IMG/VR virus record: IMGVR_UViG_3300044635_000347 | Location: 1 to 29,493 of that record | Length of the DNA: 29,493 bases | Direction: 5' to 3' (one strand) | DNA from: a virus | Part shown: positions 24,015 to 28,756 of the stretch, piece by piece | Layout of the letters: every line of letters begins with the position of its first letter | Numbering within the stretch: the first letter of the stretch is position 1 | Notes under the pieces: model-generated | What the model was told of the DNA's origin: nothing | The model's database searches: none | What the model saw: the letters and a program-made list of their open reading frames with translations, nothing else | Made by a program: the position numbers and the translations under genes

Positions 24015-24167
24015 CACTACCTCTATATAGTTTCTCTGCCGGAAGGCAGGACTGTAGGGTGTATATAATTTTATGTATCTACAATGTAGTGTATGACGAT
24101 AAGTTATAAGTCTATTACTGAATTGTTTTTATACAATGTTTTGTTCATAGCCTACATAGAAGGACTT

Positions 24168-24197
24168 ATTGTAGCATACAACTGATATTGTTGTAAA
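24168..24197 (-). promoter_or_regulatory. Leftward sigma70-type promoter of the terminase block
   Basis: On the minus strand TTTACA (24197-24192) and TACAAT (24173-24168) are separated by 18 bp. This is the same -35 and spacer length as the leftward promoter at 14840-14869. The leader to the terminase start would be about 150 nt. Confidence 0.55.
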
Positions 24198-24228
24198 GAC
24201 TCTTGACTACTACTGTAGGGTTATTGTC

Positions 24229-24270
24229 AGTGCAGACTGTGCTTTAACCAGTGCAGATTCAGTGCAGACT
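24229..24270 (+). repeat. Iteron-like array, module 1
   Basis: AGTGCAGACT at 24229-24238 followed by GTGC, then AGTGCAGATT at 24250-24259 and AGTGCAGACT at 24261-24270. Start spacing is 21 and 11 bp, so all copies lie on the same helical face. Confidence 0.7.
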
Positions 24271-24467
24271 ACACACCAATCAAGGCTTCAGCGGGACTCC
24301 ATTAACATGGTGTCAGAGGCTCCGCAGAGGCAATATAGATAACCTATTGATTCTAAAGAGATTTCTTAATAGTAATGAATTATCATTATCAAGTCACTTT
24401 TTAGCTTTTTTTGAGGCTAGGTAGCACCACAACAATTTACTATACAACTCTACCCCCTCCCCCTATG

Positions 24468-24491
24468 TTGTATACTGTATACAGAATACAA
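24468..24491. repeat. Near-perfect 24-bp palindrome (operator-like)
   Basis: The perfect core CTGTATACAG (24475-24484) lies at the centre of an outer TTGTAT / ATACAA pair (24468-24473 and 24486-24491). 11 of 12 base pairs are symmetric. Size and symmetry suit a dimeric DNA-binding protein. Confidence 0.65.
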
Positions 24492-24501
24492 TGGAGATAC
24501 T

Positions 24502-24540
24502 GCAAGATAGCAGCAAGATAGCGTAAGTTAACGTAAGTTA
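24502..24540 (+). repeat. Short tandem repeats next to the palindrome
   Basis: GCAAGATAGC occurs at 24502-24511 and 24513-24522. CGTAAGTTA then occurs at 24522-24530 and 24532-24540. Periods of 11 and 10 bp are close to one DNA turn, as in protein-binding repeats of origins. Confidence 0.65.
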
Positions 24541-24550
24541 CTGCATAGGC

Positions 24551-24581
24551 TGTGCAGTCTGTGCTGGTTGCTGTGCAGATG
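24551..24581 (+). repeat. Iteron-like array, module 2
   Basis: TGTGCAGTCT at 24551-24560 followed by GTGC, then TGTGCAGATG at 24572-24581. The architecture and 21-bp spacing are the same as in module 1. Confidence 0.65.
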
Positions 24582-24634
24582 GAAGAGTGTAGCTGTGAAG
24601 CACCCTATTGAGATACACCTACAGAGACACCTAA

Positions 24635-24660
24635 GACTGTGCAGACTGTGCAACCAGTGC
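24635..24660 (+). repeat. Iteron-like array, module 3
   Basis: GACTGTGCA is repeated exactly in tandem (24635-24643 and 24644-24652), followed by ACC and AGTGC. This third GTGCAG-CTGTGC unit ends 3 bp before the parS-like site. Confidence 0.65.
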
Positions 24661-24662
24661 CA

Positions 24663-24678
24663 TGTTCCACGTGAAACT
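24663..24678. promoter_or_regulatory. parS-like centromere site
   Basis: TGTTCCACGTGAAACT matches the bacterial chromosomal parS consensus TGTTTCACGTGAAACA at 14 of 16 positions. The fifth position, one of the two differences, is variable among natural sites. The core CACGTG is intact with both inner arms. ParB would load here as a CTP-dependent clamp. No ParB gene is present in the window, so host ParB or a gene elsewhere would be needed. Confidence 0.65.
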
Positions 24679-24698
24679 GTTGTATTCGAACAACACTA

Positions 24699-24729
24699 CC
24701 GTTCATCCTGGGTTATTGTCCGTTCATCC
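24699..24729 (+). repeat. Direct repeat CCGTTCATCC x2
   Basis: Exact 10-mers at 24699-24708 and 24720-24729, 21 bp apart, immediately upstream of the rightward promoter. Probable tandem operator for a regulator of early transcription (inference). Confidence 0.55.
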
Positions 24730-24748
24730 AGATAGGTGCAAAAGCCCA

Positions 24749-24777
24749 TTGAAATATGTTCGGAAAGTCTATAAGAT
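24749..24777 (+). promoter_or_regulatory. Rightward early promoter
   Basis: TTGAAA (24749-24754) and TAAGAT (24772-24777) with a 17-bp spacer; an overlapping TATAAG (24770-24775) would give a 15-bp spacer. The start is expected near 24784, about 27 nt before the first rightward gene. Confidence 0.5.
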
Positions 24778-24810
24778 GGTTTTCATCGCAACCAACAAAG
24801 GATTAATCAA

Positions 24811-25899: not shown

Positions 25900-26073
25900 A
25901 TGACTAAAGAACTGTTAGATGAGTTACTGTACTTAGTTGAACTTCAAATTAAGGCTAACATTGCCATTGCATTAGGTCATGCTGATGCTGCGGACAAAGA
26001 AGCGGAAAAGGAGCATGTTCAGTATTACAGACTTGTTTCGTTGATTGACTCTATGAAGGATGACTTAAAATGA
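25900..26073 (+). CDS. Small helical early protein, 57 residues
   Basis: Helical throughout: MTKELLDELLYLVELQIKAN, ALGHADAADKEAEKEHVQYY, then RLVSLIDSMKDDLK. The leucine-heptad pattern at the start suggests a coiled coil. GAGGG lies about 7 nt before ATG, and the stop overlaps the next start as ATGA. No family recognised. Confidence 0.66.
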   Translation: MTKELLDELLYLVELQIKANIAIALGHADAADKEAEKEHVQYYRLVSLIDSMKDDLK

Positions 26074-26267
26074 GATGCTTATCATGCAATGAAGCCTTAA
26101 GTGACTATGAAGCCTCACGGCGTAGTGTTCGAACACACCAGTACATTGACTTATGCAATGATTGTTTTCGTTATGTCCGTGATGAAATAGCAGCAGTAGG
26201 CAATGTACGCTTGATCAATGAAGGAGATGATGACATTGTAAGCAAACGTAACATTGATGAAGAATGA
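26070..26267 (+). CDS. Small zinc-finger early protein
   Basis: A 65-residue protein with two CxxC pairs: C3/C6 (MRCLSCNEALSDYEASRR) and C29/C32 (IDLCNDCF). These should bind one zinc ion. The MRCxSCNxxLSDxEA opening with LCNxCF is a common phage pattern in T7-like and aquatic phages. The acidic C-terminus is probably disordered. Regulatory or nucleic-acid contact is plausible but unproven. It is coupled to the gene before it and followed by a repeat-rich control gap. Confidence 0.78.
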   Translation: MRCLSCNEALSDYEASRRSVRTHQYIDLCNDCFRYVRDEIAAVGNVRLINEGDDDIVSKRNIDEE

Positions 26268-26268
26268 C

Positions 26269-26297
26269 TTGACAACTCTGGTTTTCTCTGATACCCT
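26269..26297 (+). promoter_or_regulatory. Rightward sigma70-like promoter
   Basis: TTGACA (26269-26274) is a perfect -35 element. After 17 bp comes TACCCT (26292-26297), a weak -10 preceded by TGA, which could act as an extended -10. It would drive the replication block beginning at 26429 through the repeat region. Confidence 0.45.
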
Positions 26298-26306
26298 AAA
26301 TCTATA

Positions 26307-26333
26307 TAGGCTATGTAGGCTACTTAGGCTATG
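26307..26333 (+). repeat. 9-bp tandem repeat (TAGGCTATG type) x3
   Basis: TAGGCTATG (26307-26315), TAGGCTACT (26316-26324) and TAGGCTATG (26325-26333) are head to tail. A reverse-complement-like AGCC element lies at 26389-26392. The repeats are downstream of the promoter and upstream of the replication genes. Confidence 0.7.
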
Positions 26334-26381
26334 TACTATGTATATATTAAATATTATACTTAGTATATACTTAGTACATAG
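26329..26381. repeat. Long inverted repeat, AT-rich
   Basis: CTATGTACTATGTATATA (26329-26346) is complementary to TATATACTTAGTACATAG (26364-26381) at 17 of 18 positions, with a 17-nt AT-rich loop. In RNA this would be a stable hairpin in the leader; in DNA, a large operator or cruciform. Confidence 0.7.
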
Positions 26382-26428
26382 ACTATTTAGCCTATGTACA
26401 GTAGGGCTTAACTAAAGGATTGTTCGAA

Positions 26429-26623
26429 ATGTACCCTGATGATGAGTTTTTACCTGAAGAAGCATTCGATGAGATCACTAAAGGTGAGTACGAAGACATG
26501 ATGGAAGATCACAATGTCAATGATGTGTTAAATCGCTTTGTTCGCTTATGTCAAGAGTATGGTTTTTACTTCATGATGCGTCAGTTAACTAAGGCTTTGA
26601 ATGCTAAAGGGTTCAACGTATGA
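26429..26623 (+). CDS. Acidic early hypothetical protein, 64 residues
   Basis: MYPDDEFLPEEAFDEITKGE, then YEDMMEDHNVNDVLNRFVRL and YGFYFMMRQLTKALNAKGF. ATG 26429 is preferred to TTG 26420 because AAAGGA ends just before the TTG, leaving a proper gap only for the ATG. Strongly acidic first half, amphipathic second half. It overlaps the next gene as ATGA. Function unknown. Confidence 0.66.
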   Translation: MYPDDEFLPEEAFDEITKGEYEDMMEDHNVNDVLNRFVRLCQEYGFYFMMRQLTKALNAKGFNV

Positions 26624-26903: not shown

Positions 26904-27152
26904 ATGGCTGAAAACAAAAACGCAAGGACATCCGCAGACGGCCCTGTGGCATGGCAGTGCCAATGCGGTAAAGCGTATACGGTTACTTGTATTTCAAGCA
27001 AACCATCAAAGCAATGGGTTGGACTGACTGATGAGGAGATTCAGGACTTGAGTTATCTATCTCAAAAGATTGATGCTAGTAACGCAGCGTGGTTTGATCG
27101 TTGGGGTTTTGCTAGGGCCATTCAACAAACCTTAAAGGAGAAAAACAGGTGA
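26904..27152 (+). CDS. Hypothetical protein before primase-helicase
   Basis: An 82-residue protein starting MAENKNARTSADGPVAWQCQ, with C-x-C and a later cysteine, then PSKQWVGLTDEEIQDLSYLS and a C-terminal FARAIQQTLKEKNR. The WVGLTDEEI...FARAIxxxLKEKN end is common in small phage proteins of unknown role. GAGGT precedes the start; the stop overlaps the primase-helicase GTG start (GTGA). Confidence 0.68.
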   Translation: MAENKNARTSADGPVAWQCQCGKAYTVTCISSKPSKQWVGLTDEEIQDLSYLSQKIDASNAAWFDRWGFARAIQQTLKEKNR

Positions 27153-28756
27153 ACTACTTAGCCACGCATGTTGGCTGTGATGATTGTGGATCTAGTGATG
27201 CGTTGTCCGTATCTGTTAACGATAAAGGAGAGACTTGGTCACACTGTTTTGCTTGTGGTACGAATACGAAAATGTCTGAACATGATGATAACTTCAGACA
27301 AAAGCATACAAAGTCTGCTAAGGTGATTCCAATGTTAGATGGTAAGTATCAGTCCATACCGCTAAGAAACCTCTCCAGAGATGCCTTAAAAGCCTTTGGT
27401 GTGATGATCACTGATGAAGGTGGTGTAGCTTTTCCCTACTGTGATGCTGATGGTAAGGTCACTGCATACAAGGTAAGACATGATGCAATGAAGACTGATT
27501 GCACCATCAAAGGTGATTGGTCTAAGGCTACTTTGTTCGGACAGCATTTATTCCCTAAAGGTGGTAAGAGTATTACCATCACTGAAGGTGAGTTTGATGC
27601 TGTTGCTGTGTTTCAGATGAATGGTATGCGGTACCCAGTAGTCAGTATACGCAATGGCGCACAATCAGCAATTAAGGACTGCAAGGACAACTATGAATAT
27701 CTTGACTCTTTTGAAACCATTGTTATCAGCTTTGATGCTGATGAGGTTGGTAAGCAAGCTGCTACGAAGGTAGCTGATTTATTCGGTGCTAAGGCTAAGG
27801 TAGTAAAGCACAGGCAACCACACAAGGACGCTAACGATTATCTCAAAGATGAGATGATCAAGGAGTATATCCAGGATTGGTTTGCTGCTGAAGTCTATGT
27901 ACCTGATGGGATCATCGAAGGATCAAAGCTTTGGGAAGAAATCAATACTCCAGCCATTAAAGCCTCTTGTGACTATCCTTGGGTTGGTCTTAATGCTTTG
28001 ACCTATGGCATCCGTAAAGGTGAACTGGTGACGTTTACAGCAGGTTCTGGACTGGGTAAATCACAGGTGCTTAGGGAGATTGTTTATCACATCCTATGTA
28101 AGACTGAGGACAACATTGGGTTAATGTTCCTGGAGGAGTCTACTGTTCGCACTGCCAAAGGTATCATGTCTATCCATGCGAACAAACCACTGCATCTACC
28201 TGACACAGCGTACACTGATGAGGAGTTTAGAGATGCCTTCGAGCACACTCTTGGCACTAATAGGGTTTATCTTTTTGATCATTTTGGGAGTACATCAATT
28301 GACAACATACTATCAAGAGTCAGATTCATGGCTAAAGGACTCGGATGTAGCTTTGTTGTGTTGGATCATATTAGTATTGTCGTCAGTTCTGGCGATGTTG
28401 GCGATGAACGTAAAGCATTAGATGAGATCATGACTAAGCTTAGGATGATTGTGCAGGAGACAGGCATAGCACTGTTGATTGTCAGCCATCTTAAGAGACC
28501 AGATGGTAAAGGCCATGAAGAAGGAGCAGCTACTTCACTAGGTCAGCTTAGGGGATCTGGTAGCATTGCACAGTTGTCTGATATGGTGATCGGTATGGAA
28601 AGGAATGCACAGCATGATGATGAACGTGAACGCAATACCACCAGGATTAGGGTACTCAAGAACCGTTTCAGCGGTGTCACAGGTCCAGCCTGTAACGTCT
28701 ACTACAGCCACACAACAGGAAGGTTATCAGAGGTCACACAAGATGAAGACTTATGA
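27149..28756 (+). CDS. DNA primase-helicase (T7 gp4-like)
   Basis: A 535-residue bifunctional replisome enzyme that makes RNA primers and unwinds DNA. It has an N-terminal zinc finger with C10, C13, C33 and C36, a TOPRIM domain with E146 in TITEGEFDAV and the DAD motif at 196-198 (VISFDADEVG), and a linker (WFAAEVYVPDGIIEGSKLWE). The RecA-like helicase has Walker A GSGLGKS (299-305), E-rich motif LMFLEES and Walker B SFVVLDH. AAAGGAG lies 8 nt before the GTG start. Length and domain order match T7 gp4. It would partner the DNA polymerase beginning at 29361. Confidence 0.93.
   Translation: MNYLATHVGCDDCGSSDALSVSVNDKGETWSHCFACGTNTKMSEHDDNFRQKHTKSAKVIPMLDGKYQSIPLRNLSRDALKAFGVMITDEGGVAFPYCDADGKVTAYKVRHDAMKTDCTIKGDWSKATLFGQHLFPKGGKSITITEGEFDAVAVFQMNGMRYPVVSIRNGAQSAIKDCKDNYEYLDSFETIVISFDADEVGKQAATKVADLFGAKAKVVKHRQPHKDANDYLKDEMIKEYIQDWFAAEVYVPDGIIEGSKLWEEINTPAIKASCDYPWVGLNALTYGIRKGELVTFTAGSGLGKSQVLREIVYHILCKTEDNIGLMFLEESTVRTAKGIMSIHANKPLHLPDTAYTDEEFRDAFEHTLGTNRVYLFDHFGSTSIDNILSRVRFMAKGLGCSFVVLDHISIVVSSGDVGDERKALDEIMTKLRMIVQETGIALLIVSHLKRPDGKGHEEGAATSLGQLRGSGSIAQLSDMVIGMERNAQHDDERERNTTRIRVLKNRFSGVTGPACNVYYSHTTGRLSEVTQDEDL

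Follow-up and report, generated by a model that had tools for sequence, protein, structure and literature searches.

Directly ahead of the replication genes of a freshwater phage, IMG/VR virus record IMGVR_UViG_3300044635_000347, which comprises 29,493 bases and was analysed in full (hereafter the window), lies a gene-free block at positions 26268-26428 that we interpret as a sigma-70-type promoter used by the host's polymerase, together with a structured 5′ leader, which would guard the mRNA of the replication operon. We hold this interpretation at slightly less than even confidence, and its functional part is something we infer from the comparisons described below. A first-pass annotation had offered three options for the block, namely a second regulatory switch, an RNA leader structure, or a secondary origin. 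The RNA leader is the best supported of these, given a conserved syntenic promoter, a leader hairpin, and base pairing that favours G-U in the mRNA sense. As a type of element such a leader is ordinary; what makes it interesting is that remodelling of its hairpin, of the kind expected from template switching, can be seen among relatives.

In the mechanism that we favour, the host polymerase would start 6-9 nt past the −10 element, where the first bases of the hairpin lie. With a stem positioned at the 5′ end or close to it, 5′-end-dependent decay of the RppH/RNase E type would be slowed, such that the message for the primase/helicase and polymerase might be kept long-lived. The ompA and papA mRNAs are known to be stabilised in this manner by 5′ stem-loops. 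According to one review, bla mRNA became more stable once a 5′ hairpin was appended, and hairpins in this position impede RppH (PMC3997798); a second review credits 5′ leader stem-loops with stabilising the recA and vacA mRNAs (PMC7509114). Tandem 9-bp units in the block would offer two registers for the stem, with the 5′ end either closed or preceded by a free first unit. Because the loop and inner stem vary among relatives, to the point of being flipped, it is the structure of the element, and not its sequence, that would matter.

Genomic context

The structural genes of the window (terminase, portal and capsid) are encoded on the − strand and the replication genes on the + strand. Features of the block and its neighbours are collected in Table 1. 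We presume that the primase/helicase gene shares the transcript that begins at the promoter. Relative G007, whose identical 127-base ends suggest a closed genome, encodes a DNA polymerase A downstream.

Table 1. Features in and around the promoter-leader block, in window coordinates
Feature	Position	Strand	Basis or detail
Upstream gene, 65-aa Cys-rich zinc-ribbon-like protein (MRCLSCN...LSDYEASRR)	26070-26267	+	stop codon directly before promoter; synteny
Promoter: −35 TTGACA, 17-nt spacer ending TGA, −10 TACCCT	26269-26274 (−35); 26292-26297 (−10)	+	sequence; conserved block
Predicted transcription start, 6-9 nt past −10	26303-26306	+	position of promoter
Outer stem, 5′ arm, TATATAGGCTA, register 1	26303-26313	+	folds; alignments
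Three tandem 9-bp units	26307-26333	+	TAGGCTATG at 26307, TAGGCTACT at 26316, TAGGCTATG at 26325
Inner 18-bp inverted repeat, 5′ arm	26329-26346	+	sequence
AT-rich spacer/loop, 17 nt, inverted between relatives	26347-26363	+	sequence comparison
Inner inverted repeat, 3′ arm, 17/18 complementary	26364-26381	+	sequence
Outer stem, 3′ arm, TAGCCTATGTA	26388-26398	+	folds; alignments
Shine-Dalgarno-like AAAGGA, outside hairpin, starting 15 nt past stem	26414-26419	+	position
First gene of downstream operon, 64 aa (MYPDDEF...)	26429-26623	+	ORF list; relatives
DNA primase/helicase	27149-28756	+	phrog_239, E 1.1e-176
Frame resembling polymerase-associated (pol A-like) exonuclease	from 29361	+	our reading

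The Cys-rich gene precedes the promoter in clade-1 and clade-2 contigs, and in most clade-3 loci that reach this place (clades are introduced below). Its product matches Pfam DUF7685 at E 0.025, which is under the family cut-off, and is a possible zinc-binding candidate. Elsewhere in the window, the interval 24018-24810 between the divergent structural and replication blocks holds short frames only, with a strong + strand fold near 24541, and is possibly the main early control region.

No DNA similarity to named phages was found at the settings used. By primase, the closest named phages are the Pelagibacter phages HTVC115P, HTVC104P and HTVC103P (51-53% identity), and a primase scan of bacterial and archaeal genomes found no relative. 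We claim no host despite these nearest named phages, because the 43% GC of the window does not resemble that of SAR11. In HTVC103P (L235:5250-5480), a TTGACA-17-TATAGT promoter overlaps the end of the gene for the ssDNA-binding protein; between it and the primase gene lie first a hairpin and then a terminator-like stem carrying a T run, an arrangement that could possibly reflect attenuation or a small RNA. HTVC115P (L234:3600-4060) has a gap of roughly 400 nt before the genes for the ssDNA-binding protein and primase. This gap contains a long AT-rich hairpin together with two promoter-like TATAAT sites, an arrangement that resembles, in a marine relative, the one described here. Among the matches listed for literature on HTVC103P, HTVC115P and HMO-2011, on template switching, and on phage mRNA stem-loops, titles and abstract openings do not describe the leader.

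Census of relatives

A primase scan returned 228 relatives, from which the best 80 of 228 were kept. These fall into identity groups of mostly 96-99% (clade 1), 86-88% (clade 2) and 59-60% (clade 3), with the clades named by leader type and not by primase. Two loci, L039 (88%) and L054 (86%), combine a primase at the clade-2 level with a promoter and hairpin of the clade-1 type, a mismatch that suggests recombination between clades near the block.

The block was sought in 164 sequences, comprising 163 loci (several of them sharing a contig) and the window. Its pattern is present in 120 of the 164, and once five incomplete examples are set aside, the remainder represent 59 distinct versions, 43 of them of clade-1 type and 16 of clade 2. 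Among the 44 sequences lacking the block, 16 are the clade-3 loci L066-L081. Inspection of the other 28 revealed that 19 are without the upstream gene, two carry the block on the other strand, five end at most 29 nt from the gene, and two are distant relatives. The promoter and hairpin are therefore described here as kept in the sense that every fetched clade-1 or clade-2 contig extending through the place has them. When a 167-base region was searched against 20 longer records, one strong place was recovered in each of the 14 clade-1 and clade-2 records; the six clade-3 records gave two weak matches (E about 0.005) and four had no match.

The first-pass annotation had held that its proposals would be undermined if close relatives carried unrelated sequence at this place with gene order and expression unaffected. 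Such replacement was not seen in the fetched clade-1 and clade-2 contigs. In clade 3 it has occurred in part, in that the hairpin is replaced or lost and the neighbouring genes mostly stay.

A conserved, probable sigma-70-type promoter

The TTGACA element highlighted by the first-pass annotation is present, and with its 17-nt spacer and TACCCT it forms the sole exact match to TTGACA-N17-TANNNT in the window, with TG preceding the −10. Ten more sites match with one mismatch; chance alone would give 13.3 sites compared with the 11 counted, so the weight of the assignment rests on conservation. Only three of the six −10 positions are identical to TATAAT, and the promoter is absent from the output of a pattern scan that requires at least 4/6 in each hexamer. 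In a comparison of seven clade-1 with five clade-2 sequences, the promoter block is 87-100% identical in four 10-nt bins, compared with 66% on average (range 43-91%) over the preceding nine bins (90 nt) and 69-95% in the coding sequence farther upstream. A strict pattern for the promoter block matches 49 contig stretches and a loose pattern 70, once per stretch, and we found no convincing additional genomic copies.

The best reading of this sequence is a promoter of sigma-70 type, served by the host RNA polymerase. We rejected a T7-type phage promoter, since PF00940 (T7-type RNA polymerase) was detected in T7, searched separately as a control, and in none of the 11 relatives searched, which may be fragments and whose own search gave no control hit; use of the host polymerase is accordingly to be expected.

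Among more distant relatives, 16 of the 18 loci scanned have the upstream gene, and sigma-70-like promoters recur at its stop codon: TTGACA-17-TATACT in seven loci, TTGACA-17-TACAAT and TTGACA-17-TATTTT in one each, CAGACT-17-TG-TATAAT in four, and CGGACT-17-TG-TATAAT in one. The −10 is TATACT, TATAAT or TACAAT in 13 of these 16, and L073 has lost the gap. The promoter at this place thus seems older than the present sequence of the hairpin. At a primase identity of about 60%, most relatives retain a sigma-70-like promoter, and only some have a hairpin; the hairpin is likely to be a replaceable addition, as some clade-3 phages do without one. L071 (59% primase identity) has no good promoter consensus but retains CTTCTCTGATACCCT at the promoter place (2696-2775), with the hairpin sequence not kept. 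Given this locus, the TACCCT −10 and the preceding CTCTGA may constitute a specific recognition sequence.

One long quasi-palindrome

Past the promoter, the first-pass annotation had reported three head-to-tail 9-bp repeats and an 18-bp inverted repeat with 17 matches and an AT-rich loop. Both are present as described, and both are parts of one long quasi-palindrome spanning about 26303-26398. The inverted repeat had been understated, since it forms only the central part of a longer pair of arms, each 39 nt, with 85% complementarity and 1 nt between them. This is the sole place in the window with 25-nt arms, at most four mismatches and a loop of at most 15. Folded as RNA, positions 26290-26420 give −45.5 kcal/mol, an energy matched by none of 200 shuffles (z −4.8), and as DNA z −4.3. 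By raw folding energy the place ranks fourth among the 120-nt stretches of the window, and once GC is corrected for it heads all 1470 stretches (110 nt, + strand). The syntenic place is likewise first of 1993 GC-corrected folds in G007 and first of 2106 in G005, and in the clade-3 record G020 it is outside the top 8.

Single folds of nine clade-1 and clade-2 sequences range from z −1.9 (L131) to −7.9 (L033). In clade 3, another strong hairpin occupies the place in L068 (z −5.1) and L069 (z −4.5), with L070 at −3.7. No significant hairpin was found in L077 (z 0.5), the gaps of the clade-3 or distant loci L067, L074-L076, L078, L079 and L162 give z 0.3 to 1.1, and L072 gives −1.3. For L081 and L071 the value varies with the stretch chosen (−2.6 or −0.2, and 0.5 or −2.1, respectively).

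Several other assignments were considered and set aside. That the gap has no gene, as first reported, holds true: a 53-aa TTG-start frame (26254-26415) is not credible as a hidden gene, being broken in relatives by indels that are not multiples of three. No Rfam match in the window exceeds the gathering score, and a known RNA family was rejected on this basis. An intrinsic terminator or attenuator was also rejected, in that the stem is AT-rich and is followed by CAGTAGGGCTT without a U run; a scan gave six terminator-like sites, none at this place.

The tandem units themselves could be read as a DNA operator array, in which repeated TAGGCTATG half-sites after the promoter bind a phage or host repressor. 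Near-matches to TAGGCTATGTA (at most two mismatches) do number 26 in the window against 10.8 expected (sd 2.95), nine of them inside 26268-26428, with the remaining 17 still above expectation. Set against this enrichment is the inconstancy of the array, which has three units in the window, four in L005 and L011 and seven in L126, and of which clade 2 keeps the first unit alone. We consider an operator array extremely unlikely.

Conserved pairing, with G-U favoured in the mRNA sense

Across the 59 distinct sequences, the 11-bp outer stem is paired in 648 of 649 cells. Read in the mRNA sense, these include 52 G-U cells and no A-C cell. L065 has C-G where 42 clade-1 sequences show T-A, which is a double change, and three sequences have C-G at an outer-stem position where 40 have U-G. 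The alignment used for clade 1 holds 33 of the 43 clade-1-type versions; L010 and L095 were missed by a pattern, and L001, L005, L013, L022, L024, L033, L126 and L137 were left out owing to indels or an inverted spacer. A second alignment holds 15 of the 16 clade-2 versions, with L050 left out. Within the alignment of 33, changes to or from G-U affect five pairs, the double change of L065 affects one, and A-C occurs in one cell.

A 32-pair structure pairs in 99.7% of cells among these 33 versions, compared with 13-53% when the partner is slid by 1-3 columns. The RNAalifold consensus of 40 pairs is broken in five single cells (A-G, C-U twice, U-U and A-C). Covariation is slight, with one double-change pair and 34 of 500 shuffles scoring as high, and the test is weak because there is too little variation. 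When the hairpin is aligned in a strand-neutral way, 162 mismatch cells are G-T and 65 are A-C, or 33 and 9 when distinct contexts are counted. This excess is supportive of pairing in the mRNA sense, with the proviso that the events are not independent. The mean folding energy of the 59 sequences is −40.8 kcal/mol for the + strand and −38.5 for the − strand. The window could extend its stem by 5 bp (CCCTA/TAGGG) into the −10; clade 2 lacks this extension, as would follow if it lies outside the transcript.

The direction of the G-U preference bears on whether the block is instead a replication origin, secondary or main, at which a promoter and an AT-rich extrudable palindrome prime synthesis near the primase gene. 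The block has 30% GC compared with 43% for the window, it places a promoter with AT-rich DNA just ahead of the replication genes, and it appears as one strong place in each of the 14 clade-1 and clade-2 records searched, all of which would suit an origin. The T7 phi1.1A/B origin region similarly has a promoter with AT-rich DNA near replication genes, but the promoter here is of sigma-70 type, and the 11 relatives searched yielded no T7-type RNA polymerase. The arms favour G-U in one sense, a bias that would not be expected of a DNA cruciform, and the hairpin is dispensable in part of clade 3. Moreover, the cumulative GC skew has its turning point about 2-3 kb ahead of the hairpin in G007, and 1.5-2.5 kb ahead of it in G005, close to where the gene blocks diverge; gene direction confounds skew, however, and leaves it uninformative as an origin test. 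We judge an origin to be quite improbable.

Predicted 5′ end and ribosome-binding site

If the structured leader is to act as a 5′ stem, its details at the predicted 5′ end matter, and these differ between the clades. Folds of the predicted transcript alone leave 0 nt free at the 5′ end in all 16 clade-2 versions. Among the 43 clade-1-type versions, the free 5′ end amounts to 9 nt in 35, 4 nt in six, 12 nt in one and 0 in one; for the window it is 4 or 9 nt, depending on the downstream length folded. In such folds a second stem register appears, in which 26313-26322 pairs with the same outer 3′ arm. The 9 free nucleotides of most clade-1 versions arise because the second 9-bp unit competes for that arm, and they make the protective role uncertain.

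AAAGGA is unpaired in the 26290-26420 fold and partly paired with downstream sequence in the transcript fold. Over 55 transcript folds its mean unpaired probability is 0.60, with a lowest value of 0.23. Thus, a model with a stem at the exact 5′ end and an open ribosome site holds only in part, and closure of the 5′ end is well predicted in clade 2 only. The stretch from hairpin to start codon is longer in the clade-2 loci L044, L048, L053, L045 and L050, the extension being about 45 nt in L044, L048 and L053; TAGCATGTACACCCCTGTCAAG lies downstream of the hairpin in four of these five loci, and L050 has a similar start.

Remodelling of the hairpin among relatives

L015 and L003 carry a 17-nt spacer between perfect 14-bp arms, and in L013 this spacer is exactly reverse-complemented. 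Over arms and spacer, L013 matches L015 and L003 at 45 of 45 positions when inverted, compared with 38 of 45 directly, where the spacer contributes 10 of 17. The spacer orientation of L013 recurs, with two changes (43/45), in the window and in L008. L033 also has this orientation, with a small deletion, and its left arm is the reverse complement of the common right arm, which gives it the longest unbroken stem among the folded sequences. A nested segment of the right arm exists as either ACTATTTAG or TCTAAATAG.

Assembly error is an unlikely source of the inverted form, since the block is shorter than a usual sequencing read and the form occurs in four contigs, the three named ones of which bear different metagenome numbers. 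For the inverted state, a primase tree of 32 clade-1 rows requires three changes, of which supported branches force one; because the tree is star-like, independent inversions cannot be counted.

An invertible switch was among the readings that the first-pass annotation's second regulatory switch could imply, and the data do not bear it out. The inverted segment lies downstream of the promoter, which is outside it, and neither serine (PF00239) nor tyrosine (PF00589) recombinases were found in eight records, with 10 and 14 of 14 controls detected. We therefore rejected an invertase-driven switch.

The changes in the inner hairpin fit what template switching predicts, namely spacer inversion, copying between arms and gain of units. 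A yeast study (PMC8604942) explains both arm homogenisation and spacer inversion by template switching between inverted repeats, and the two outcomes are found here between relatives. Template switching has also been argued to create and maintain RNA hairpins (PMC8794818). As in other quasi-palindromes of this kind, the spacer between the 14-bp arms is exactly inverted and one arm is rewritten from the other; unlike in those studies, this is deduced from environmental phage contigs and not from strains or mutants, and the 17-nt spacer compares with shorter ones in the yeast study. We tentatively propose, at well short of even confidence, that the leader stem of these phages is kept paired mainly by replicative template switching, with the promoter and outer stem nearly fixed and two registers at the 5′ end.

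The same observations can be taken further, to a neutral origin in which the quasi-palindrome is kept by template-switch mutation alone and sits harmlessly behind a functional promoter. The exact spacer inversion, shared with two changes by the window and L008, the left arm of L033 rewritten from its own right arm, and the unit gain in L005, L011 and L126 would all follow, as would a hairpin that is weak or absent in part of clade 3 and transcript-only folds that give no single 5′-end structure. Mutation of this sort would be less expected to leave an outer stem that is nearly invariant in its pairing and favours G-U in one sense, a block kept in every sufficiently long clade-1 and clade-2 contig fetched, and a different strong hairpin at the same place in L068-L070. 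We regard the wholly neutral explanation as unlikely but deserving of weight.

Comparison with known leaders

Given the 36-48 pairs predicted for the 59 leaders, ahead of replication genes, the structure could alternatively be a site of mRNA processing or control, recognised either by RNase III for cleavage or by a phage replication protein. The T4 gene 32 and gene 43 leader operators likewise place RNA structure in front of phage replication genes, and these mRNAs are described as controlled via a leader pseudoknot and an upstream hairpin (PMC3014915). The same source reports that the gene 43 operators of T4 and RB69 share loop bases, whereas the loop here is inverted and variable, with neither its sequence nor its orientation conserved. 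On balance we find a processing or control site rather unlikely.

Our preferred reading, a stabilising 5′ leader, finds closer counterparts in the 5′ stem-loops of ompA, papA and bla. Like these, the predicted stem stands at or near the 5′ end and upstream of the ribosome site, and its structure is conserved over its sequence. It differs from them in belonging to a phage operon, in its longer AT-rich stem (about 40 predicted pairs), in the rapid remodelling of its inner part, and in that most clade-1 folds leave 9 nt free at the 5′ end.

Implications

These findings do not indicate a new kind of system. They offer a concrete picture of how the replication operon may be transcribed in a group of uncultured phages, whose relatives carry no detected phage RNA polymerase. 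The 59 distinct natural variants display the mutational upkeep of the hairpin directly, in the form of spacer flips, arm copying and unit gain. If the proposed role of template switching is true, they would document, on the scale of a natural population, how mutation maintains an RNA hairpin.
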